From Chitinophaga caseinilytica (GTDB lineage Bacteria > Bacteroidota > Bacteroidia > Chitinophagales > Chitinophagaceae), in NCBI RefSeq assembly GCF_038396765.1, contig NZ_CP150096.1, forward strand, positions 353,501 to 417,500: DNA of 64,000 nucleotides, read 5' to 3'. Under the pieces are notes generated by a model, which saw only the letters and a program-made list of their open reading frames with translations, was not told the DNA's origin and made no database searches. Numbering within the stretch: the stretch's first letter is position 1; the number at the start of each line of letters is the position of its first letter. The position numbers were made by a program, and so were the translations under genes. Positions 17,720 through 29,130 of this stretch are shown piece after piece.

Positions 17720-17792
<73 letters not shown>

Positions 17793-17855
17793 CAAAAGAT
17801 TCAAAACCTGCCACCATGGCGGGTTTTGCTATTTCAAGGAAATAATTGTTCCGCT

Positions 17856-17908: not shown

Positions 17909-19258
17909 TCATACAGCTCGCCGTACCGGGCTTCCATATACCTGCGACGCTTTATTGGCCTTCTCCAGGCGCTGACGACAGGTTTCGTATTTATCCCTGC
18001 CCGCAGGCGATCCCCCTTTCGCTTCCGGTTTTTCTTCGGGAGAATTTTCCTGCAGGGAAATGAAGGGGTATACTACCATTTTGTTACTGATCATTTCAGA
18101 CAACATCGCTTCCAGGGTCAATTCCGGATTGAACGCCTCATCGAGAATGGCCTGGAATGCGGAATGATAGATCACTATGAAACGGGAACCGGTCACCTGG
18201 TCTGTCCAGAAACCGTCATCGGCAAGCGGGAGCACCTGCGAAAAACCGTTGATGCTTCCACAAAGCAACCCGCCTCCGTACTGATATGCCCGGATCACCT
18301 GACGAACGAAAGTATGTGCCGAGTAAGCGGGCGTGAAACGATGATCGTCGTAGCAAACCACGATTACGTCCTCTTCCTTTTCCACAGCCATCCTTACGAT
18401 ACTGCAAAGCCGGCCCCAATCTGCGGTATTATCGCACGCTGACCATTCGTGTGTTGCGATGGTGAATTCCCTCCGCCCTTCGAATTCCTTCAAAATCTGC
18501 CCCTCCTTATCTGCCGCTCCAGGAGTTGACAGGATGTATACCGGCAGCACAACCGTTGCCAGATCTATCGTTCCGGCCACCTCCGGCTGCACGGCCGCAT
18601 TCCTGAAAAAACCGGCCACCGTATCCAGGATATTAACTTTCGCGATGGCATTCACATAGAGCTCGTCTACCCGCCCGGGCGTATCGTTCCTCGATGTAAC
18701 GTCCGAATACCCGAATGATTGCTGGACCGACACAAACGGCGCGATAAAGAATTTGGCATCTGTTAGCCGGGAAATAAACAGATCGGCCACATTTCCGGTG
18801 CCGAAATCTGCTTCGAGAATTTGCGGGATGAATTTCCGGAAAACGACGACAAACTGAAAGCCGGTGAACTTCTCCACCCAAAACAAGTTATCCGAAGCAT
18901 GAAAAGCATTCTCGAACCAGCTCGGCCCGCCGACCAGGATATCCGCCTGCCGTTCCCTTGCTTCTATGATACAGGTATGCAGCAGTTCCGGCGAATAGTT
19001 TTCGGTAAACAAGTGATCGTCTTCACAAATCAGCACATATTCCGATGCCTGTTCCGCCCGGCTGGAAAGGATTTCGAGGATCGTATCCCAAAGTCCGACG
19101 GCGCCGGAAGCGTGTTCCCGGGCTTCTACGATAACGGGGGTAAACTCCGGCTTGCCTGCGAATTGCGCCAATGCGTGTTGCCGGCGGTCGTCTCTTTTCT
19201 TCAGGTTGATGATGAAAGCGGGAATTGGGGGAAACGGGGTTTTCACGTCCTGGTTCAT
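17909..19258 (-). CDS. Tandem GT25-like glycosyltransferase of the peptide-export operon
   Basis: 449 residues made of two similar halves (about 10-215 and 235-420). Each opens with a strand (IPAFIINLKKRDDR; LPVYILSTPGAAD), then a metal/nucleotide-type acidic motif (ICEDDHLFTENYS; VCYDDHRFTPAYS), then a matching aromatic block (WVEKFTGFQFVVVFR; WTDQVTGSRFIVIYH). This is the pattern of family 25 (LgtB-like) glycosyltransferases, present twice. The C-tail is charged. No membrane segment. Its ATG overlaps the HlyD stop codon (ATGA), so it is translated with the exporter. It may glycosylate the exported six-cysteine peptides; the acceptor is inferred from position only. Confidence 0.72.
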   Translation of the reverse strand: MNQDVKTPFPPIPAFIINLKKRDDRRQHALAQFAGKPEFTPVIVEAREHASGAVGLWDTILEILSSRAEQASEYVLICEDDHLFTENYSPELLHTCIIEARERQADILVGGPSWFENAFHASDNLFWVEKFTGFQFVVVFRKFIPQILEADFGTGNVADLFISRLTDAKFFIAPFVSVQQSFGYSDVTSRNDTPGRVDELYVNAIAKVNILDTVAGFFRNAAVQPEVAGTIDLATVVLPVYILSTPGAADKEGQILKEFEGRREFTIATHEWSACDNTADWGRLCSIVRMAVEKEEDVIVVCYDDHRFTPAYSAHTFVRQVIRAYQYGGGLLCGSINGFSQVLPLADDGFWTDQVTGSRFIVIYHSAFQAILDEAFNPELTLEAMLSEMISNKMVVYPFISLQENSPEEKPEAKGGSPAGRDKYETCRQRLEKANKASQVYGSPVRRAV

Positions 19259-20628
19259 TGCATTGAATTAAATGATTTGGTGAAATTATCGGCGAATCTT
19301 TCCAGCAACCTCAAGTTGCGGGTAATGATCCTTGCTTTGACCCTGAGGCCGTTTTTATAGGGCAGTTGCTGATTCCGGTTGGTCAGCAATCCCTGTTCCA
19401 GCCGTATACTGGCAAGAAACCCACTGTCTGACGGCACGCTTGAAATATAGGAAACCCTCCCGGGCACATGTCCGAATTCATGAAAGGGATAGGCCTGGAA
19501 TTGCAACAACACCTGCATGCCGGTATCGATCTTGCCGAAATTCTCCTGCGCCAGATTCACTTCGATGTATTGCGTATTTCCGGCAGGACTAACATACCCC
19601 AATACTTTCCCCTGTGTCACATATTGGTTTTCCTGTAGCGGCATTACAAACGCGATTTCGCCTTCAACCGGCGCGATGATAGTGTACCGCTTCCGCCAAT
19701 CTTCGATCTTGCTGCCCAGCACTTCCAGCAAATGCAGGTACGCGCTTGCGTTCCGTTCCAAATCCTGGGCAAGCGCATCCACCTCCTGTCGTTTTTCACT
19801 AAGCCGTGTTTCGGCCGACAGTATAGACAGATCGTACTGATTAGCGGCGATTTCTTTGGAGAGATAATTGCTGTGATGATTCCTGAATTCATCGTTGGAA
19901 GTAACTTTTTCCTTCAGCAGTTTTTCCTGTACCTGATATCTTTCCCGGGCGATGGTGAGGTCTTGTTGTGAAATGAGCTGCTGTTTCCGGATGGTAGCCA
20001 GCTCCAGCTGCAATCTTTCCATATCTCTTTTGAGGACGGCATTCTTCCGCATATAGAAACCCTCGTTCAGGTATCCCCTATACTGTTGAACGGTCTGCAT
20101 CAGTTCCCGATAATTCTGTTGCAGTTCGCCGAGATGCTCCATGCCAGTGGGGATCGCACGCAGCGAAGATTCCCCGTTCCCGGCCATTGCCAGTTCCGTG
20201 CTCTTTTGGACGATTTCCCGCAACCGCAGCACAGTGGCATGATCTGCCGTGGATTGCAGCCAGGCGATGGTGGCGCCCGCCGGTACCCGGCTGTTGTTTT
20301 GCGCAAACAGCCGGATGATCCGTCCGCTTTCGTAGGGCAGTAGTTCTTTCGGTGCATTGTAAGCGGTCAACGTTCCGCTGGCGTCGATGATATCCGGATA
20401 CCGGATGAACCATGCAGTAACGAGGATCGCGGCCAGGATACCAGTGTAAAACCACAGGGCGCGCCTTTCCATCCATCCCGGCTTGCTGGAAAAAATCTCC
20501 TCCATGGCGTCTGATCGCATGAACTTATGGGGCACTTGGGGTGAAACGGCGATCTGCTCCGGACCAGGAACGATGGGCTCCTGGCCGGTATCTTTTTCGG
20601 TGGCGGATGGATGGGGTTGCGTATTCAT
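19255..20628 (-). CDS. HlyD-family adaptor of the C39 exporter
   Basis: 457-residue periplasmic adaptor linking the ABC transporter to the outer membrane. Cytoplasmic N-tail of about 55 residues, one membrane segment at about 58-78 (LWFYTGILAAILVTAWFI), lipoyl/barrel half at about 90-130, a long coiled coil at about 140-320, then the second lipoyl half (IIAPVEGEIAF) and beta barrel. Its ATG overlaps the transporter stop by one base (TAATG). There is no TolC gene in this operon, so a shared outer-membrane channel is needed. Confidence 0.92.
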   Translation of the reverse strand: MNTQPHPSATEKDTGQEPIVPGPEQIAVSPQVPHKFMRSDAMEEIFSSKPGWMERRALWFYTGILAAILVTAWFIRYPDIIDASGTLTAYNAPKELLPYESGRIIRLFAQNNSRVPAGATIAWLQSTADHATVLRLREIVQKSTELAMAGNGESSLRAIPTGMEHLGELQQNYRELMQTVQQYRGYLNEGFYMRKNAVLKRDMERLQLELATIRKQQLISQQDLTIARERYQVQEKLLKEKVTSNDEFRNHHSNYLSKEIAANQYDLSILSAETRLSEKRQEVDALAQDLERNASAYLHLLEVLGSKIEDWRKRYTIIAPVEGEIAFVMPLQENQYVTQGKVLGYVSPAGNTQYIEVNLAQENFGKIDTGMQVLLQFQAYPFHEFGHVPGRVSYISSVPSDSGFLASIRLEQGLLTNRNQQLPYKNGLRVKARIITRNLRLLERFADNFTKSFNSMQ

Positions 20629-22814
20629 TACCTGGCAAGTTCCAGCTGGTTTTTCACCAGCTCATAATAGTGATTTTTCAATTCGATCAGTTCGAAGTGG
20701 GTTCCCTCTTCAATGATCTTTCCTTGTTTCAGTACGATGATCTTATCTGCATTCTTCACCGTGCTCAGCCTGTGGGCCACGACCAACACCGTTCGCCCCC
20801 TGAAAAACCGGTCGAGGTTTTCCACGATCGTTTTTTCGTTGTTGGCGTCGAGCGCGTTGGTAGCTTCGTCGAAGAAAAGGAAAGCCGGATCCTTGTACAC
20901 CGCCCGGGCGATGAACAGCCGCTGCCGCTGCCCCTGGCTCATCCCCACGCCTTCCGCGCCCAGTTTTGTATTAAAACCATTCGGCAGCGATTCGATAAAG
21001 GGAAGGATATTGGAAACCCGGCAGCTGTATGCCAGCCGCTCCTCGTCAATCACTTCTTCTCCCAACGCGATATTCCGGGCGATGGTATCATTAAAGATGA
21101 AACTGTCCTGCAACACGGCGCCGCACTGCCGCCGCCAGAAGGCTGGACTGATATTCTGCAGATCATGGTTCCCTATGGTAATATTGCCCTGGTATTCCTG
21201 GTAAATCCGCAACAGGAGCTTGATGATCGTGGTTTTGCCGGAGCCGCTGTCTCCCACGATGGCAGTAACTTTCCCCTGCGGGATTTCCAGTGAAACATTG
21301 TTCAGCACAACAGGGTTGCCGGCGCCGGGGTAGGTAAAATTCACATGCTGCAACCGGATCTGGCAAGGTACGGGTAGTTGCGTGACGAACGATTTGCCGT
21401 CCGGTTCCTCATCATCGAGCAAATTGATTTCGTTCAACCGCTCCAGGCTGATTTTCGCATCCTGGTATTGCTGGAACAAACCTACGAATTGCTGCACCGG
21501 TGCGCTCAGTTGCCCGAGTATATATTGAATGGAAAGCATGGCCCCGAAAGTTAGCTGCCCGTCTACCACCAGTTTGGCGACACTGAAAGTGAGCAGGATG
21601 TCTTTGCTTTGATTGATCAGCAATGCCCCGGCCGACTGCAGCTGGTTGTACCCGAGGTTCCTGAAGTTGAGCCGGAACATTTTCGATTGTATGTTTTCCC
21701 ACTCCCACCGCTTCAGCTGTTCCGCATTTCCCAGCCTGATTTCCTGTACGCCCTGGATCATTTCGAGTGAAGCGGATTTCTCCCGGGCCGAAGCGGCGAA
21801 CTGTTCTTCGTTGATCTTCCTGCGCAACTTCATGAACAGCCTTATCCACGTGAAATACAAGACACTGCCGATGAGGAAAATGACGAAAAGACCAGGGCTG
21901 TACAGCATCAGGATGGCTGCATAAATAACAAAGGAGATGAGCGAAAAAATGGTATTGATGGTCTGCCCGGTGAGAAAGGCCTGGATCTGCCGGTTATCGC
22001 TGAGCCGCTGTAGCGTATCTCCCGTTTGCCGGGTATCGAAATAGGAAAGCGGAAGCCGGTTCAGCTTGATCCAGAAATCGGACAGCAGCGCGATATTGAT
22101 CCTGCCTGTGACGCGCAACTGCAACCGGTTCCGGATGAAATTGATCAACGTGGTGCTGAACACGAGCATGAGCTGCGCGATGAGAACGAGCGTGATATAA
22201 TTGAGGTTATTTGCATTGATACCATTGTCTACCATGCTTTGTGAAAGGAAAGGCATGACGGTTTGCAATATCAATCCAATCCCCAGCGAAATGAATATCT
22301 GGATGAGCGGGCCGCGAGCACCTCTCAGGTAATTGAACAGGAATCCCCAATTCAGTTTATGTTCCTTCTCGTCTTCCGCCTGGAAGAATTCAGGTTTCGG
22401 CTCGAGCAACAATGCGGTGCCAACAGACCGGTCGTCTGCATTGATGTTGGTCGTCCATCTACGCATGAACTCCTCTTTCTTATAGGAGATGATACCGCTG
22501 GCAGGGTCCGCGATCTTCACGTTTCTTTTTCCCGCATCGATCATAACTACGAAATGATTATGGTTCCAATGCAGGATGGCGGGAACGGGAACCTGTTGCA
22601 ATTTCTCATAATCGATTTGCACACCGCGGGTACGGAATCCCATTTTTTCGGCGGATTCGCCGATGCTAAGCATGGAGACGCCTTGCTTACCAAGCCCTGT
22701 CTGGCGGCGGATTGTATCAACATTGTAATGCTTCCCATGCGAACGTGCCACCATCCGCAAACAGGTGGGGCCACAATCCATCGCATTCAATTGACGATAA
22801 AAATGAAAAGACAT
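20628..22814 (-). CDS. Peptidase-C39 ABC transporter (GG-leader peptide exporter)
   Basis: 728-residue exporter that cuts the leader after a double glycine and pumps out the core peptide. The C39 peptidase domain (about 1-135) has catalytic Cys14 in AMDCGPTCLRMV, His in WNHNHFVVMI and Asp in IADPASG. Six membrane helices at about 165-440 follow, then the ATPase: Walker A GDSGSGKTTII, signature MSQGQRQRLFIARA, Walker B FLFFDEATNALD, switch His in VAHRLS. The two double-glycine peptides at 24996 and 25434 are the obvious substrates. It is first in the minus-strand operon, divergent from the redox and peptide genes. Confidence 0.95.
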   Translation of the reverse strand: MSFHFYRQLNAMDCGPTCLRMVARSHGKHYNVDTIRRQTGLGKQGVSMLSIGESAEKMGFRTRGVQIDYEKLQQVPVPAILHWNHNHFVVMIDAGKRNVKIADPASGIISYKKEEFMRRWTTNINADDRSVGTALLLEPKPEFFQAEDEKEHKLNWGFLFNYLRGARGPLIQIFISLGIGLILQTVMPFLSQSMVDNGINANNLNYITLVLIAQLMLVFSTTLINFIRNRLQLRVTGRINIALLSDFWIKLNRLPLSYFDTRQTGDTLQRLSDNRQIQAFLTGQTINTIFSLISFVIYAAILMLYSPGLFVIFLIGSVLYFTWIRLFMKLRRKINEEQFAASAREKSASLEMIQGVQEIRLGNAEQLKRWEWENIQSKMFRLNFRNLGYNQLQSAGALLINQSKDILLTFSVAKLVVDGQLTFGAMLSIQYILGQLSAPVQQFVGLFQQYQDAKISLERLNEINLLDDEEPDGKSFVTQLPVPCQIRLQHVNFTYPGAGNPVVLNNVSLEIPQGKVTAIVGDSGSGKTTIIKLLLRIYQEYQGNITIGNHDLQNISPAFWRRQCGAVLQDSFIFNDTIARNIALGEEVIDEERLAYSCRVSNILPFIESLPNGFNTKLGAEGVGMSQGQRQRLFIARAVYKDPAFLFFDEATNALDANNEKTIVENLDRFFRGRTVLVVAHRLSTVKNADKIIVLKQGKIIEEGTHFELIELKNHYYELVKNQLELAR

Positions 22815-22942
22815 GAAACTGGGAAAATAGGATTTCGAGATCGGGTTAAATAAACATTTCGTTGATATTAAAGTTAATGCTTTCGAAAAATAATCGGAAC
22901 GATTTTTTTTATTTTTTTCTTCACTTTAAAAAACTAAATGCA

Positions 22943-22950
22943 TATATTTG
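22943..22950 (+). promoter_or_regulatory. -7 box in the divergent control region of the peptide cluster
   Basis: TATATTTG is a perfect TAnnTTTG match pointing toward the VKOR gene, leaving a leader of about 230 bases. No good TTG is at the -33 position. The 22815-23189 region between the divergent operons is A/T-rich. It also holds a nine-base inverted repeat (22992-23000 with 23029-23037) inside the predicted leader. No clear minus-strand box for the exporter operon was found. Confidence 0.4.
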
Positions 22951-23189
22951 AAATGTGTGAAAAACGAATAGAACGCGACTAAGGCAAAAAACTGAAAATT
23001 CCCGCGTCCCTTGCCCCCCGTGAATTGCAATTTTCAGGTTAACCTTTGAAACCCGATAAACCCGAATTTGAAATAATTAACATTTAATGTAACCCGATTT
23101 CCCAACGCCACGTGTTATGGTAATGTAAATGCGAAACCACCGTTTCGGAATGCACCGATCCCATGCATGGCATTTGACACAATTGCATT

Positions 23190-24815
23190 ATGTTCCGGAA
23201 ACTATCTGAACCCACGCCCAACGGGCCAATGGCAGCGCATGCCCTATGCTCGCTATTGGATGTCCCGGTAACGGCCTCCACGCTGAAACGTGAAACGGAA
23301 GACCATCCTTCCTATCCCAGCCTCCTCAGTATCAGTGAAGTATTGACGATGCATGGCGTAGAAAACATTTGTGCCAGCTTCCCCCAGGAACAACTGGCAG
23401 ACATACCGCCTCCGTACATCGCACAGATCAAAGACGAAAAACATCCCGGCGATTATTTCACCGTCGTAAAATCCTGCAACAACCGGCAAGTAATTTACCT
23501 GGACCCACACAGCGGAAAATGGGTTACCGTGCAGGCAAACCGCTTCACCCGCCTGTTCACTGGAGTAATACTGCTGGCCGAAGCCTTGCCGAATGCCGGA
23601 GAAGCGCAATACAACCTGAAACGGCGCGAAGAACGCTGGAACAGCATAAAGACTTACCTGCCCGCCATCGCTCTCACGCTCATCACCATTGCCGTGGCTG
23701 CCCGTGCCGCTGTGCAATTGGGAACAGGCGCCTTATTGCCCGTTATGTTCACACTGCTATCGTTGCTGGGCTGCGGCGTCGGCACCATCCTCATGTGGTT
23801 CGATCTCGACCGCTTCAACCCCGCCGTACAACAGTTCTGCCGCCGGAGCAATAAGGTGAACTGCAATGCCGTACTGCAATCGGATCGTGCCCGGTTCGCC
23901 GGATTTTCATGGAGCGAAATCGGCATCTCCTATTTTTCCGGTCAGTTACTTTTCCTGCTGACGCAGGGAATTTCTTCTCTCCCGGTGATCGCCGCAGCCG
24001 GCTGGATCAGCCTCGCTGCCCTGCCTTACGTATTTTACTCGATCTTTGTACAGGCGCGTGTTCTCAAGCAATGGTGCCTCCTGTGCCTGATGGTCCAGGG
24101 CATTCTCCTTGCGCAGGGAGCGGCGGCACTCACGCTGATCCTGCCGGTAAACACCATGCCTCCAATGCTGCCGATGGGCATCCTGGCAGCTTTCACGGCG
24201 TCCGCGTTCTTATTGGTACAGCTCGTCAAACCCATGCTGAAACAAAACAAACAATACCGGCATGTAAGAAGGCAATATACAAGGCTCCGGTTCCAGCCCG
24301 AAGTGTTCCAGTCTATATTGCAACGGCAACGGCAGGTAACGCATGACCCCGCCGGCCTCGGCCTCGTCATGGGTAATCCGGAAGCAAAACATACGGTGGT
24401 GAAAGTATGCAATCCGTATTGCGGCCCTTGCGCAACGGCACATGTGCCACTACATGAATTGGCGGAGCTGAACGAAAACGTCAACATACGGATCATTTTC
24501 ACAACTTCCGAAAACCCTGAAGATCCGCGCCGCTTACCGGTTAGTCATCTTATGGCCATCGCCGAAGAATATGACCCCGCCACCACCAAATCTGCGCTGG
24601 ATAGCTGGTATACCGCGAAAGAAAAAGATTACGCGGCCTTTGCCGCCAGGTTCCCCGTAAAGGCCGACCTCCAGCAGAAAAACACGAAGATCGCCGCTAT
24701 GGCGGAATGGTGCACAAAAGTCGGCATAGAACACACACCCACACTTTTCGTCGATAATTACGAACTACCTGAATCCTATTCCGTACATGATTTACGCAAT
24801 TTCCTGACAACATAA
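23190..24815 (+). CDS. C39-like / VKOR / thioredoxin-like fusion (disulfide-forming enzyme)
   Basis: 541 residues. The N-terminus (about 1-135) resembles a C39 peptidase domain (DHPSYPSLLSISEVL, HPGDYFTVVK) without the QxDC catalytic motif, so it probably binds rather than cuts. Four to five membrane helices form a VKOR domain with loop cysteines Cys217 and Cys225 and the quinone-side CxxC Cys296/Cys299 (QWCLLCLM). The C-terminal periplasmic DsbA/thioredoxin domain has Cys411/Cys414 (NPYCGPC) and cis-Pro in EHTPTLFVDN. VKOR fusions make disulfides using quinone. Placed just before two six-cysteine peptides, it probably oxidises them, with the C39-like part possibly holding the precursor. Confidence 0.88.
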   Translation: MFRKLSEPTPNGPMAAHALCSLLDVPVTASTLKRETEDHPSYPSLLSISEVLTMHGVENICASFPQEQLADIPPPYIAQIKDEKHPGDYFTVVKSCNNRQVIYLDPHSGKWVTVQANRFTRLFTGVILLAEALPNAGEAQYNLKRREERWNSIKTYLPAIALTLITIAVAARAAVQLGTGALLPVMFTLLSLLGCGVGTILMWFDLDRFNPAVQQFCRRSNKVNCNAVLQSDRARFAGFSWSEIGISYFSGQLLFLLTQGISSLPVIAAAGWISLAALPYVFYSIFVQARVLKQWCLLCLMVQGILLAQGAAALTLILPVNTMPPMLPMGILAAFTASAFLLVQLVKPMLKQNKQYRHVRRQYTRLRFQPEVFQSILQRQRQVTHDPAGLGLVMGNPEAKHTVVKVCNPYCGPCATAHVPLHELAELNENVNIRIIFTTSENPEDPRRLPVSHLMAIAEEYDPATTKSALDSWYTAKEKDYAAFAARFPVKADLQQKNTKIAAMAEWCTKVGIEHTPTLFVDNYELPESYSVHDLRNFLTT

Positions 24816-24995
24816 CATTTAAAAATCCTCCACATCACCCTTTCGCGATCCGCTAACCTCGCGATACCGGGCGAGTTGTGCGAAAAATAACTGGTAATCC
24901 GCCAGCAGTGCGCGCCTGCCGGAAGAGGACCATCATGGCCGCAGGCCGACATGTAAAAACGGCCGCACATTTTTTTAACCCTTTTATTTTTTACC

Positions 24996-25256
24996 ATGAA
25001 AAAACTCCAATTAAAAGCCCTTGAACTGGGAGCCCGGGAATTGCTTTCCCGCGAACAATTAAAGAACGTTCTCGGCGGAAATGGATCAGGATCCGACGAT
25101 TCCGGCGGGTCTGCCGGCGCCAAATGCACCGCGAAATGCGGCGACTCTTCCGTGTCCATTACATGCAAAGGCAGCTGTTCCGCGACAGATAACGTTGGCG
25201 TTGAATGCACCGAAGGAAGCACCACAACCAGCAAATCTTGCATGGGCGCAAGCTGA
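24996..25256 (+). CDS. GG-leader six-cysteine peptide precursor 1
   Basis: 86 residues. Leader MKKLQLKALELGARELLSRE continues to a double glycine in NVLGGNGSG, the leader type common in Bacteroidota RiPP precursors. Cleavage after GG leaves a core of about 57 residues rich in Gly/Ser/Thr with six Cys spaced C-x3-C-x8-C-x3-C-x9-C-x10-C. The pairs CTAKC and CKGSC each match an equivalent in precursor 2. No modification enzyme of the lanthipeptide or radical SAM type is nearby; disulfides and possibly sugars are the likely modifications. The function of the mature peptide (toxin, signal or surface protein) is unknown. Confidence 0.82.
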   Translation: MKKLQLKALELGARELLSREQLKNVLGGNGSGSDDSGGSAGAKCTAKCGDSSVSITCKGSCSATDNVGVECTEGSTTTSKSCMGAS

Positions 25257-25289
25257 TCCCGATAATTTCACCCTTATTCATTCCTTACG

Positions 25290-25392
25290 ATGAATAGCCC
25301 CAATTGGCAGCCCTACAGCCAGAACTAAGGAACTGCTCAACAGGGAACAATTGAAATCCCTGCATGGCAGAAACGGCTCAGGCTGCCAGTAA
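25290..25392 (+). pseudogene. Decayed third GG-leader precursor
   Basis: From ATG 25290 the sequence reads, with two one-base frame corrections, a leader like the two intact copies: PQLAALQPEL, then KELLNREQLKSLHGRNGSGC and a stop at 25390-25392. In the starting frame a stop is met after 12 codons. The double glycine has become Gly-Arg and only a stub of core remains. It is therefore a dead remnant of a third copy lying between the intact ones. Confidence 0.65.
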
Positions 25393-25433
25393 CACTTCAA
25401 TTCAACTTCTTTTTTAACCCGATTACTTACATT

Positions 25434-25688
25434 ATGAAAAAACTACAATTAAAAGCACTCGATTTAGGCGCAAAAGAAATCCTCTCCAGAGAACAACTGA
25501 GAAATGTTCTGGGCGGCAATGGCAGCGATGGCGGATCCGACGCCGGATCTTTCTCCACCTGTTCCACTACCTGCACCGGCTCGAAGGACATTAAGATCGA
25601 CAATTGCAAAGGTACCTGCTCAGCTTATGCCAATTCAAGCGTAACCTGCTCGGACCCCGACAAAACGGTGAACTGCCCCGTGCTGTAA
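25434..25688 (+). CDS. GG-leader six-cysteine peptide precursor 2
   Basis: 84 residues. The leader is almost identical to precursor 1 (MKKLQLKALDLGAKEILSRE, then NVLGGNGSD). The core of about 55 residues has six Cys with spacing C-x3-C-x10-C-x3-C-x9-C-x8-C; CKGTC matches CKGSC of precursor 1. Away from the cysteines and small residues the cores differ strongly, as expected for paralogous secreted peptides whose cores diversify while the leader stays fixed. A 10-pair hairpin follows the stop codon at 25722-25747. Confidence 0.82.
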   Translation: MKKLQLKALDLGAKEILSREQLRNVLGGNGSDGGSDAGSFSTCSTTCTGSKDIKIDNCKGTCSAYANSSVTCSDPDKTVNCPVL

Positions 25689-25721
25689 TACCCGCATCGA
25701 GATTCATCAATACTGAAAGCT

Positions 25722-25747
25722 GCCTGGCCGGAATCAACCGGCCGGGC
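25722..25747 (+). other. GC-rich hairpin after precursor 2
   Basis: GCCTGGCCGG (25722-25731) pairs with 25738-25747 (one T-G pair) around AATCAA. There is no T run after it, so it is not a standard terminator; it may protect the peptide mRNA 3' end or reduce read-through into the thioredoxin gene. Confidence 0.4.
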
Positions 25748-25820
25748 GGCCTTTACAAATCGCATCGCCATTTTTTAACTTTTCGTTGTCACCAAAAGTC
25801 AATAATTTAAATACAAAAAG

Positions 25821-27161
25821 ATGGTCAAGCCCTGTTTGCTGTTATTGCTTTTCCCTATCACATTAACCCTGTCAGCCCAGGACCTTCCCGTCCAACCCAC
25901 TAAGCTGCTGGCATTCGAAAATGGTGTACCGGGAAGAAAAGGTATCATGAAACGGGAATTCCTCACCGAGCAACTCTCCGGCGATAGCGGCTTCGTTAAT
26001 ATGCCGGATTGCGAACATCATACTATCCGGCGTTTCCATCTAAAAAAAGACCAGGACGTTTTCGAAAGATACGCACAGGGAAAAATCGAGCCTTCCCGCT
26101 TCCTGCAATTCATCCAGCAATACCAAATCGATACGAACCTCCTTTCCCGATCGCCCCAACCCGCCAATAGTTTCCATGCTTTCGTAGGATTGGACAGCCG
26201 GGGACGGAAGATAGTGATAGTAGATGTCAACCAGGACCGCAATTTCGGCAACGACAGCACCTGGCTTTTCGACACGAGCTATTTCGGGAAACCAGATAAA
26301 GATTGTCCGCCCCTCCCCGAAATTGCGCTTCCCGGCCCGAACGGCCCCGCCAAGATCAAGCTCAATCCTTACCAGGCGTATTTCGGAAAAGACGGATATA
26401 GCACGCCCGAAGACAGGCTGCTCGAACTGGTAATTTCAGTTGACGCTTATTGGATCGCCAGCCTGGAAGCCGGCGGGAAGAAACAGAAAATCTTTGCGTG
26501 GGACCAGGGTATCAACTTGCTGCAAGATCCCCGATCAAAAAATATCGTACTGAAGCTGGAAGAAGATAGTACCAGCAAGTATGTTTACCGTAAAGGTGAA
26601 AAAATCAAAACAGGAAATGCAGTGCTTGCCTGGACCGACACTTCGGCGTCCGTACTCCGGCAATACCCGGTAATCGCCTTCCGGCAAGTAAGCAGTACGC
26701 AACATTTCGAAGCGGATAAAGGAAGCTATGTGCCGGATTTTGAAACGAAAGATCTCATTACCGGCAAAACCGTTTCGATCTCCGGCTTCAAGGGGAAATA
26801 CGTAATCCTCGACTTTTGGGGCACATGGTGCAACCCATGCGTGGCCATGATCCCGGAAATGCGCACCGAACACGAGCAGCTGAAAGGCAAACCCGTGGTA
26901 TTTATCAGCGTGGCACTGGACCGTACCGCCGACGAAAAAAAATTGCGCCGGTTGATCGATACAGAAAAAATGGACTGGGTCCAACTATGGCAGAAATGGG
27001 AAAATAAATCGGAAGATGACAGCCTCACGAAACTGTTTAAAGTAATCGTTTTCCCCACATCCATTCTTATTAGTCCATCAGGTGAAATCCTCCACAGGGG
27101 AACTGCCGCAGACGGTTTCCAGAAAACGGTCGAAATCTTAAAAACCAGGCTGAAAGGTTAA
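25821..27161 (+). CDS. Secreted TlpA-like thioredoxin-fold protein
   Basis: 446 residues with a signal peptide (about 1-19, ending TLSAQ). The first 290 residues are a domain I do not recognise. The last 140 form a TlpA/ResA-type thioredoxin domain with redox pair Cys337/Cys340 in FWGTWCNPCVAMIPEM and cis-Pro in IVFPTSI. TlpA-type proteins usually reduce or rearrange disulfides in the periplasm, so it could complement the oxidising VKOR fusion by correcting mispaired cysteines in the peptides. That role is inferred from position. Confidence 0.85.
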   Translation: MVKPCLLLLLFPITLTLSAQDLPVQPTKLLAFENGVPGRKGIMKREFLTEQLSGDSGFVNMPDCEHHTIRRFHLKKDQDVFERYAQGKIEPSRFLQFIQQYQIDTNLLSRSPQPANSFHAFVGLDSRGRKIVIVDVNQDRNFGNDSTWLFDTSYFGKPDKDCPPLPEIALPGPNGPAKIKLNPYQAYFGKDGYSTPEDRLLELVISVDAYWIASLEAGGKKQKIFAWDQGINLLQDPRSKNIVLKLEEDSTSKYVYRKGEKIKTGNAVLAWTDTSASVLRQYPVIAFRQVSSTQHFEADKGSYVPDFETKDLITGKTVSISGFKGKYVILDFWGTWCNPCVAMIPEMRTEHEQLKGKPVVFISVALDRTADEKKLRRLIDTEKMDWVQLWQKWENKSEDDSLTKLFKVIVFPTSILISPSGEILHRGTAADGFQKTVEILKTRLKG

Positions 27162-27234
27162 CTACCGACACGCGTTCCCTTATACCCGATCAATAAAACC
27201 CATTCCCGTTTTTAACCCAATGAAAACCCATCGT

Positions 27235-27909
27235 ATGTTCAAATACGGCCTCATCACCGCCGCCGGGCATGGATCCCGGCTAGATCCACTCACGCAGTAT
27301 CTTCCCAAGGCACTGGTAGAAGTAAACGGCGCGCCCATGATCAGGAGCCTCCTGGACCAGATCAATCCGCTCGTACCTCATGTGTCAGTCACCATCGGCT
27401 ACAAGGCGGAAATGCTCGCATCCCGGCTCGCCCAAAGCATCAGCGCCATGTACAATACATCGGGAAAAGGCAATGGCTGGTGGATTTTCAATACTCCACT
27501 TCGATTCGTAAATGCCCCCGTACTCGTTGTGGCCTGCGACATTGTCGCCGACCTTGACCTTCATTTTATATATGACCAATACCTTAAAAACGGACACCCT
27601 CCCTGCATGCTCGTACCAATCCATGCCACATCCGATGTGGAAGGAGATTTCATCGAATATAAAGACGGGAGGGTTACTGCACTGAGCCGGACTATAGAAA
27701 CCCCTATGATGGGCTCCGGCATCTACGTTATCAACCCCGCCGTTGTAAATGCCCGTATGGCCGAGATGCAGGATGTGACAGATGTCTGGAAGCATTTTCT
27801 TCCTGCCGGAGATTTGGGCTGTACGCCCATTTATCCAAAATTCTGGGCCACCGTCAATAACCTGGAACAGCTATACCGTTGCCAGCAGGCACTCACTGTA
27901 AACTTGTGA
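27235..27909 (+). CDS. LicC-like sugar/choline-phosphate nucleotidyltransferase
   Basis: Nucleotidyltransferase fold: GLITAAGHGSRLDPLTQYLP (NTP-binding loop plus Lys in PKALVEVNG), DIVAD metal site and GSGIYVINP. Such enzymes join a sugar phosphate or phosphocholine to CMP/UMP. At about 225 residues it fits the short LicC-like type. ATG 27235 is preferred to ATG 27220 because it puts the start the same distance (about 16 bases) behind the TTTTTAACCC motif as in the two peptide genes. Three bases separate it from the LicD fusion gene downstream, which suggests donor synthesis for that transferase. Confidence 0.78.
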   Translation: MFKYGLITAAGHGSRLDPLTQYLPKALVEVNGAPMIRSLLDQINPLVPHVSVTIGYKAEMLASRLAQSISAMYNTSGKGNGWWIFNTPLRFVNAPVLVVACDIVADLDLHFIYDQYLKNGHPPCMLVPIHATSDVEGDFIEYKDGRVTALSRTIETPMMGSGIYVINPAVVNARMAEMQDVTDVWKHFLPAGDLGCTPIYPKFWATVNNLEQLYRCQQALTVNL

Positions 27910-27912
27910 ACC

Positions 27913-29130
27913 ATGCAGAAATACATGCTTTCTATTCAAAAAAATAACGGCATCCTCGTGGCATTGGAAAAGAACGGTCAGCGAACCATTATCGACCGTC
28001 CCGTGGAGCCCCTTATAGCCGTCGACGAAAAATATCAGGATGAAGAATGGGGTGTCGGGCTGAGCGATTTTGAAATCGAATATTTTCGTGCCAACTGGCA
28101 GGCTATATCACATTTTCTATTGCAAAAGGAAAAGAAATGGTGCATAATAGTGGAGGATGGAGTAGCAGTCAATTGCAGCGACGATATGCTGGAAGATATC
28201 GCTTCACAGATTCCTGATGAAGTAGATGTCTTTTTTCCCTTCGGCCGCAAACCCGAAGAAGCACAACTGAAAGTACATCCCTCCATCATGGGTTACTTCT
28301 GGGGAAGCCAGATTTATTTCATCAGCAAAGGAGGTGCAAAAAAACTGATGCAGCTTTGCCCTCTCATCAGACAGCCATTTGACGAGGAATTACTCAACCT
28401 TTCCATCGACAACAAATTATCTATCAGCTACGATGAAATAGACATCTTCACTTACAATTACAGCCTGTCGCCCAGCTATCTTGCCCGCCGACAGGTTGTC
28501 CATAACAAGCTTTTCAACTACCCGGCCTGGACTGCCGACACTAAACAAATGGCCCGCGACCTGTTGCGAAAGACTTGTCTGGAAGCTGACGAAGCCGCCG
28601 TCAAACTCGTCTTGCACGGAGGTACGCTACTGGGCGCCATCCGGCATGACGCCATCATGCCGTGGGACGATGATATCGATCTTGGCATCCATCACCACGA
28701 CATTGAAAAACTATTAGCTCAGCTTGATAAATCAGGAACACTGAAACATAAGCTGATTCATGCGAACTTCCGCGGTAACCCTTCCATTTTCTATAAAATC
28801 TGGGACGAAAATGGGATCAACATCGAAGGCTATGACTACAAATTCCCATTTATCGATATTTGGCTGTATTTCGAAGATGGAAAAGCCATGTATTACAAAG
28901 AATGGCCGTCATTCAACCCCGACCTGTATTTTCCCTTGAAAAAAACTGAGTTCGAAGGCAGCGATTTATGGATGCCGGTAAACCCCACCGGATTCCTCGA
29001 TTTTCTTTTCCGGGATTGGAGGGAGATGATCGTAGTATATCCTTTCTGTCATTCGAAAGAACGCTATGCCTTCAAACCACTATCATATGCTATCCAGGTG
29101 GATGAACTTGGCAAGCTGATCGAGTATTGA
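27913..29130 (+). CDS. Fusion of GT25-like domain and LicD/fukutin-type phosphotransferase
   Basis: 405 residues. The N-terminal half (about 1-190) resembles the GT25-like units of the gene at 17909, with WCIIVEDGVAV in place of the EDD motif and YFWGSQIYFISKGGAKKLM. The C-terminal half (about 205-400) is a LicD/FKTN domain with HGGTLLGAIRHDAIMPWDDD, then DIDLGIHHHD and the downstream FPFIDIWLYF. LicD proteins transfer phosphocholine or phospho-sugars from a CDP donor to glycans. It is preceded directly by a LicC-like gene. Whether the acceptor is the secreted peptide or a cell-surface glycan is unknown. Base composition looks more A/T-rich than the neighbouring Sus genes. Confidence 0.78.
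   Translation: MQKYMLSIQKNNGILVALEKNGQRTIIDRPVEPLIAVDEKYQDEEWGVGLSDFEIEYFRANWQAISHFLLQKEKKWCIIVEDGVAVNCSDDMLEDIASQIPDEVDVFFPFGRKPEEAQLKVHPSIMGYFWGSQIYFISKGGAKKLMQLCPLIRQPFDEELLNLSIDNKLSISYDEIDIFTYNYSLSPSYLARRQVVHNKLFNYPAWTADTKQMARDLLRKTCLEADEAAVKLVLHGGTLLGAIRHDAIMPWDDDIDLGIHHHDIEKLLAQLDKSGTLKHKLIHANFRGNPSIFYKIWDENGINIEGYDYKFPFIDIWLYFEDGKAMYYKEWPSFNPDLYFPLKKTEFEGSDLWMPVNPTGFLDFLFRDWREMIVVYPFCHSKERYAFKPLSYAIQVDELGKLIEY

Follow-up and report, generated by a model that had tools for sequence, protein, structure and literature searches.

A Chitinophaga caseinilytica locus encoding disulfide-type peptides with predicted sugar and phosphate-linked modification

The window analyzed here, 64,000 nucleotides of Chitinophaga caseinilytica DNA, contains one cluster that brings together two GG-leader six-cysteine peptides, a C39 exporter, an HlyD adaptor, a tandem GT25-like protein, a VKOR/thioredoxin fusion, a TlpA protein and a nucleotidyltransferase/GT25-LicD pair. 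We propose that the secreted peptides probably bear a sugar with a phosphate-linked cap, the locus comprising two precursors and the genes that finish them (Table 1). The presence in one cluster of an exporter, a likely disulfide former and two enzymes with predicted folds like those of human collagen- and dystroglycan-modifying enzymes makes capped-sugar peptides likely products. We predict that the tandem GT25-like protein would attach a sugar to a Ser (or Thr) in the Gly-Ser linker directly after the leader, and that the neighboring nucleotidyltransferase would activate a phosphate-linked head group with which the FKRP-like GT25-LicD protein would then cap this sugar. Up to three disulfides would be formed by the VKOR-thioredoxin fusion, and leader removal and export would fall to the C39 exporter with HlyD. 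Genes, domains, recurrent co-location, the linker difference and predicted folds were computed; we infer every chemical step and the order of the steps.

Table 1. Features of the locus, in coordinates of the window
Feature	Position	Strand	Description
tRNA-Ala (GGC)	17720..17793	+	edge of a ~33 kb stretch absent from a same-genus relative
Tandem GT25-like glycosyltransferase	17909..19258	-	predicted peptide O-glycosyltransferase; N half CEDDH, C half degenerate CYDDH
HlyD-type periplasmic adaptor	19255..20628	-	Pfam HlyD_3 45.1 bits, over cut-off
C39 peptidase-ABC exporter	20628..22814	-	predicted to cleave behind the GG and export the peptide; C39 at 117.4 bits and ABC_tran at 102.8 bits in Pfam
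Degenerate C39-like + VKOR + thioredoxin fusion	23190..24815	+	predicted disulfide former with leader-docking domain
Precursor PepA	24996..25256	+	six-Cys core (58 residues) behind a GG leader and a Gly-Ser linker
Likely third-precursor remnant	25318..25392	+	read from sequence: leader-end-like frame and Gly-Ser start, then stop; no intact start
Precursor PepB	25434..25688	+	six-Cys core (56 residues) behind a GG leader and a Gly-Ser linker
TlpA/ResA-like thiol oxidoreductase	25821..27161	+	CNPC motif; AhpC-TSA 51.7 bits; predicted disulfide proofreading
Nucleotidyltransferase, MobA/LicC/MurU fold family	27220..27909	+	NTP_transf_3 31.2 bits (cut-off 27); predicted head-group activation
FKRP-like two-domain protein	27913..29130	+	GT25-like stem (EDD motif lost) and LicD catalytic domain (WDDDID)

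Gene content and precursors

The nine genes between 17909 and 29130 are all open reading frames at the positions in Table 1. Minus-strand overlaps join the exporter stop to the HlyD start (TAATG) and the HlyD stop to the glycosyltransferase start (ATGA), which makes translational coupling plausible. Both precursor leaders end in GG and each predicted core has six cysteines; with three disulfides and no addition, the calculated mature masses are 5394.157 Da (PepA) and 5562.321 Da (PepB). A TIGR04149 label for PepA was rejected (19.1 against a cut-off of 25). No immunity gene was identified for the peptide locus, and the two ends compared of the tRNA-edged ~33 kb stretch share no common word longer than 10 bases that could mark att repeats.

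The C39, ABC and HlyD domains all exceed their Pfam cut-offs, as do the VKOR and thioredoxin domains of the fusion. Open reading frames and Pfam domains thus confirm the gene content originally predicted from the sequence: GG six-Cys peptides, C39 and HlyD coupled to the glycosyltransferase, VKOR/thioredoxin fusion, TlpA and LicD pair. Absent from that prediction was a third, N-terminal C39-like domain in the fusion (35.6 bits, cut-off 22). When 60 fusions were placed in one alignment that included the exporter, the C39 catalytic column held no Cys in any of them (59 gaps, 1 Ile), ruling out a catalytic C39, while the four VKOR Cys were present in 60/60 and the thioredoxin Cys pair in 59/60. 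We suggest that this degenerate domain docks the leader.

The tandem glycosyltransferase and the Gly-Ser linker

Foldseek assigned GT25-like folds to both halves of the tandem protein, with human collagen galactosyltransferase COLGALT1 as the best match, and the EDD metal motif is present in the N half. TM-scores of the whole-chain Foldseek matches were low (about 0.3), as expected because the relative placement of the two domains differs. The GT25 family PF01755 scored 22.2 bits, just below its cut-off of 24; precomputed annotation assigns it to roughly three quarters of the 97 relatives listed. Judged by its predicted structure, the window's tandem protein is of GT25 fold with an EDD metal motif. 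No GT2 Pfam family matched any of the nine proteins of the cluster.

A Gly-Ser linker follows the cleavage site in 37 of 46 precursors beside a tandem glycosyltransferase (GT+) versus 7 of 46 in VKOR loci without one (GT-), a contrast that is confounded with precursor lineage and uses a leader model built on GT+ seeds. In many GT- loci the leader belongs to another subclass, with EMK in place of QLK. Three of 49 leader matches in each set were dropped for having fewer than three Cys. The GT- set consisted of 40 stretches out of 75 rows listed in 54 genomes; the main loci of the window's own genome, G106 and G177 (which carry the tandem glycosyltransferase), the fragments in G107 and G124 and weak rows were left out. 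Some stretches are short contig ends, and near-duplicate loci (for example, L031 and L033) are among those counted.

If the linker were a flexible spacer only, the tandem glycosyltransferase would modify some other residue, such as a core Ser, Thr or Cys. GS is absent from every linker in 7 of 27 GT+ loci and the sequence leaves other sites possible, as such a spacer would allow; the enrichment of Ser and Gly, however, sits in the linker, and none was seen past the first Cys. We consider a mere spacer unlikely. On the preferred reading of a glycosylated linker, these data point to the Gly-Ser segment as the likely glycosylation site.

The GT25-LicD protein, its head group and recurrence of the locus

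The LicD domain scored 61.4 bits (cut-off 22.6), the acidic catalytic motif WDDD(I/V)D was found in 35/35 rows of the GT25-LicD alignment, and predicted folds match the protein to human FKRP across both domains. The N-terminal domain received no PF01755 call from Pfam. The original family assignments, GT25-like and LicD-type, stand by the LicD score, the folds and the relatives, and lack a Pfam GT25 call for either protein; for both, GT25 rests on relatives and predicted folds. EDD was present in 0 of 34 fusion rows with letters at that position, which gives no support to a catalytic GT25 domain in the LicD fusion; the first Glu is retained in 29 of the 34, so the domain may keep some activity. 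The acceptor-binding stem of FKRP likewise lacks its catalytic motif (PMC6965139, available portion).

The head group in the window was assessed from the neighboring nucleotidyltransferase, which matched the LicC entry 1jyk at 5.8e-5, behind four other entries; a three-row profile placed 1jyk first (4.5e-12), but over positions 5-75 only. By sequence comparison, the earlier term LicC-like applies no further than the fold family. The window's genome (G000) has no match to choline kinase PF01633, and with so weak a 1jyk match the phosphocholine once suggested for this window was set aside. A single IspD gene was found, and the window's own partner enzyme is not of IspD type. PntC-type activation is a route to a 2-aminoethylphosphonate head group (PMC6697681, in the part available). 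This candidate was also rejected: PEP mutase exceeded its cut-off in none of six genomes; G582, G583 and the genome of the window gave no match, and the matches in G843, G783 and G630 fell below the cut-off.

Among GT25-LicD relatives the activating enzymes vary. Choline kinase, LicC and the LicD fusion occur together in L047 (Pedobacter psychrodurus) and L116, and an IspD-type partner occurs in L114 and L119. In the first two, phosphocholine would be the head group; the best NCBIfam model for their kinases is a guanitoxin-pathway kinase, below its cut-off, so that "choline" rests on Pfam and PDB matches. We tentatively put forward a wider reading, which may prove correct about as readily as not, though we would not favor it: a class of exported ribosomal peptides whose linker glycan is phospho-alcohol-capped by an FKRP-like enzyme with interchangeable heads (choline via choline kinase and LicC, a polyol via the IspD type, another via the window's enzyme), as a bacterial counterpart of dystroglycan ribitol phosphate built on a collagen-type tandem glycosyltransferase.

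The fusion is rare. Family genomes gave any match in 3/294, near full length in two (the window's own and G209), and a class sample gave 13/295, full length in the window's genome only; in the family of Pedobacter psychrodurus there was any match in 23/301, with nine genomes, including G583, covering at least 300 model positions. One of the scans used a single short peptide pattern and was non-exhaustive.

With a GG precursor, a C39 domain, a VKOR fusion or LanB taken as a hallmark of peptide export, such a hallmark was found in 35 of 40 tandem-glycosyltransferase loci and 10 of 13 GT25-LicD loci versus 0 of 22 control stretches; the first of these figures set against the controls indicates more than a chance arrangement. 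Dropped before counting were, for the LicD loci, L118 and L120 (fragmentary LicD) and, for the 40, L019 (the L052 locus) and L021-L024 (the L049, L029, L051 and L056 loci). Twenty of the controls were taken from preset, round-numbered positions in eight genomes, and L176 and L026 made up the rest. BLAST to the exporter matched three of the 22, none with a C39 domain, and the C39-domain test (0/22) was therefore used as the figure; one of the 22 matched GT25-LicD, and L026 had entered the controls owing to such a match. These counts support the prediction of a locus devoted to disulfide peptides and their sugar-type and LicD-type tailoring; they also turn out in favor of that prediction on the refuting condition set with it, that homologues would lie in LPS or capsule loci apart from GG peptides. 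The stated lack of radical SAM and LanB holds for this window; among the 40 loci, LanB relatives occur in three and radical SAM relatives in four.

The LicD pair is an accessory of tandem-glycosyltransferase loci, present in 5 of 40, two of which (L110 and L116) entered via the LicD search itself. Eight of 13 LicD loci have no tandem glycosyltransferase in the stretch examined (three of the 13 show no hallmark), and the fusion thus cannot always act on its sugar. Both counts would suit a glycosylated disulfide peptide without a phosphate cap, the nucleotidyltransferase and GT25-LicD protein serving another acceptor, such as a surface glycan, and adjoining by chance or shared regulation; so would the weak LicC match in the window and the lack of a choline kinase match in its genome. 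The recurrence of GT25-LicD fusions in peptide-export loci argues against this; among these loci are L112, which has LanB and LanC, and L044, where a GG-leader protein adjoins LicC. We judge an uncapped product rather improbable.

GT25 and LicD are classical LPS families, as would befit LPS or capsule glycan genes of the usual kind lying next to an unmodified, bacteroidetocin-like disulfide bacteriocin, but this is very improbable given that tandem-glycosyltransferase relatives stay with peptides across several genera and that the Gly-Ser linker is mostly missing from VKOR peptide loci without the enzyme; the 40-locus survey with its control and the coupling of the glycosyltransferase gene to the exporter and adaptor genes led us to reject an LPS or capsule locus. 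An exporter with a thiol oxidoreductase, which would also fit, is known for bacteroidetocins (PMC6671954, available portion).

A phosphate-capped sugar on such peptides appears to be undescribed in the open-licence literature searched, which includes available portions of PMC10352776, PMC12457901, PMC6671954, PMC6697681 and PMC6965139 and has most subscription journals outside it. If the preferred capped-sugar reading is true, GT25 tandems and FKRP-like LicD proteins join the modification toolkit of ribosomal peptides, and cytidylyl-type activation enters peptide natural products. Pedobacter psychrodurus is a named strain with the complete phosphocholine set in which the prediction can be checked, and bacterial stand-ins for FKRP and COLGALT1 would be on offer.

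Comparison with known systems

The SunS glycosyltransferase belongs to GT2. Glycocins (sublancin, glycocin F and thg) share with this locus a Cys-rich precursor core, a protease/transporter, a dedicated glycosyltransferase and thiol-disulfide enzymes (PMC12457901, in the part available). The original label, glycocin-like, fits these activities, including the C39 exporter and cysteine-rich GG precursor found here, and does not extend to the glycosyltransferase family: by relatives and fold the window's glycosyltransferase-type proteins are GT25-type, with a GT25 tandem rather than a SunS type, and a VKOR fusion takes the place of BdbA/BdbB. The locus additionally has an HlyD adaptor, a nucleotidyltransferase and an FKRP-like LicD protein, in a Gram-negative host.

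Bacteroidetocins are likewise GG-leader peptides of Bacteroidetes, served by a thiol oxidoreductase and by an ABC exporter that has a double-glycine peptidase domain; as described in the available portion of PMC6671954, their features include a five-TM protein gene and a bacteroidetocin-type peptide, and the two studied peptides have four cysteines versus six here. The terms "glycosyl" and "VKOR" are absent from the main text of that paper. With the Lic phosphocholine pathway (LicA, LicC, LicD) the locus shares the LicD domain, and L047 and L116 the full set; unlike that pathway, the window has neither a choline kinase nor a LicC-grade enzyme, and the predicted acceptor is the glycan of a peptide instead of LPS or teichoic acid.

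Human FKRP, with ISPD, places ribitol phosphate on dystroglycan. Like the GT25-LicD protein, it combines a glycosyltransferase-fold stem with a LicD-type catalytic domain, and the likeness extends to ISPD in L114 and L119, in contrast to the window's partner. The GT25-LicD protein differs in being bacterial, in its GT25-type stem and in its peptide-export locus. Similarly, the match of the tandem protein to COLGALT1, a collagen hydroxylysine galactosyltransferase, spans both halves at about 10% identity, whereas its acceptor would be a Ser/Thr in the Gly-Ser linker.

Gene content and acquisition of the cluster

The genes and associations described here are observed, and we read them as a glycocin-like disulfide peptide locus whose chemistry is predicted. 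All nine genes placed in the cluster by the original prediction were found at their positions. In Pfam searches, the C39-ABC exporter, HlyD, the TlpA-like protein, LicD and the NTP_transf_3 match of the nucleotidyltransferase exceeded their cut-offs, as did VKOR and thioredoxin, which are fused in a single protein behind an N-terminal C39-like domain; the GT25 score of the two-domain glycosyltransferase (tandem GT) was slightly below. The exporter and HlyD genes overlap at TAATG and the HlyD and GT genes at ATGA, and three bases separate the nucleotidyltransferase and LicD genes. The predicted cores of the GG-leader precursors PepA and PepB (58 and 56 residues) contain six Cys each. Between them, a frame without an intact start resembles the leader end and opening core residues of a third precursor. 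The same genome encodes a further HlyD/ABC pair elsewhere, likewise matching C39, around which a scan for leader motifs picked up no GG precursor.

Among VKOR fusions pooled from loci with and without the tandem GT, the four VKOR Cys are present in 60/60 and the thioredoxin Cys pair in 59/60; in one alignment, none of the 60 has the Cys of the C39 catalytic column. This dead C39 domain may dock the leader.

In G229, a relative from the same genus, the response regulator, tRNA-Ala and sequence matching the window from 51.2 kb on stand in the same order, and ~33 kb of the window next to tRNA-Ala is absent. GC across the cluster is about 0.49-0.53, versus 0.54-0.59 in most other 2-kb windows between 10 and 58 kb; the ends of the stretch that were compared showed no repeats. 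The cluster-bearing stretch was likely gained beside the tRNA gene; alternatively, it is possible that G229 lost the ~33 kb.

Coordinates of features in the window and in other loci
Locus	Position	Strand	Feature
Window	17909-19258	-	Tandem GT
Window	25318-25392		Third precursor-like frame
Window	27220-27909	+	Nucleotidyltransferase
Window	27913-29130	+	FKRP-like GT25-LicD fusion
Window	17794-51220		Absent from G229 (L176)
L177	7439-10813		Second HlyD/ABC pair
L051	16139-17776		GG precursor run
L114	8488-9216		Second IspD copy
L119	5611-6348		Second IspD copy
L044	6709-7770		~300-350-residue protein
L118	1892-2833		~300-350-residue protein
L119	7972-8871		~300-350-residue protein

Occurrence of the tandem GT and the precursor linker

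The tandem GT is rare in the family (7/294 genomes, own genome counted). A genome-contig scan yielded 35 loci in Chitinophaga, Pedobacter, Mucilaginibacter, Sphingobacterium, Niastella and others, to which the window, L018, L020, L110 and L116 were added. GG-leader precursors occur in 25 of these 40 loci, a C39 domain in 25, a VKOR fusion in 23, LanB in 3 and radical SAM in 4; any of precursor, C39, VKOR or LanB was found in 35/40, versus 0/22 control stretches. The remaining five are L037, L050 (contig end), L056 (single GT domain), L058 and L061. For three PepA relatives in the databases, the contig sizes (476750, 62031 and 298650 bases) are identical to those of contigs bearing tandem-GT relatives. 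Peptide loci of disulfide, LanB and radical-SAM type therefore share this one enzyme family, which suggests that its substrate is a peptide rather than LPS.

Three LanB/LanC loci (L027, L043, L045) enclose a tandem GT, with a transglycosylase-domain relative; their products are possibly glycosylated lanthipeptides. In Longitalea luteola (L051, the same locus as L023), a run of similar GG precursors near the tandem GT has cores with an RMA start and CC pairs, differing from the six-Cys type. Three GT25 relatives of 660-667 residues (P0123, P0171, P0181) carry additional Pfam domains of methyltransferase type (PF13489, PF13649, PF08241).

Precursors beside the tandem GT were compared with those from 40 VKOR-fusion stretches of the family, none with a tandem GT, the three known GT-bearing loci having been left out beforehand. 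GS occurs between the GG and the first Cys in 37/46 GT-associated precursors versus 7/46 others (Fisher 3e-10), a contrast confounded by lineage, as the leader model was seeded from GT-associated leaders and the sets differ in leader subclass. A stricter leader cut-off gave 37/44 versus 4/21, and loci with any GS linker numbered 20/27 versus 7/25 (p 0.002); past the first Cys, the two sets were nearly equal in their content of Ser and Gly. Among the 19 PepA relatives listed, whose context is mostly unknown, 14 have GS and 17 have G then S or T in the linker. The linker would be a candidate place for a sugar from the tandem GT.

LicD partners and head groups

A partner nucleotidyltransferase was found in 8/13 LicD loci; in the remaining five, only some neighbours were tested. 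The partner is LicC type in L044, L047 and L116 and IspD type in L114 and L119; L110 and L112 share the type present in the window. The strongest case for a phosphocholine set is the Pedobacter psychrodurus locus L047, where a nucleotidyltransferase (LicC 1jyk, 5e-51) and a kinase (choline kinase 4r77, 1.5e-54) form one run with the LicD fusion, in a locus that also has a GG precursor, VKOR fusion, exporter and tandem GT. In L116, BLAST relatives of both enzymes adjoin the LicD fusion. For both kinases the best NCBIfam model, below cut-off, was a guanitoxin-pathway kinase. Phosphocholine, an option in the original prediction, is unsupported for the window, where the nucleotidyltransferase is weakly LicC-like and no choline kinase was found in the genome; a phosphonate is unlikely, as PEP mutase was not found.

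The IspD-type genes of L114 and L119, near an FKRP-like protein and exporter, are second IspD copies in their genomes. The L114 sequence matches a MEP cytidylyltransferase entry (1.1e-31, as labelled) better than it matches ribitol enzymes (1.6e-22), so a polyol head group is a guess. In L044, L118 and L119, related proteins of ~300-350 residues lie close to LicD genes and to genes of LicC or IspD type; that of L044, which matches DUF7689 and has a GG-type leader, is a candidate protein-sized substrate.

By predicted fold, the enzymes of the locus resemble human enzymes that modify collagen and dystroglycan.
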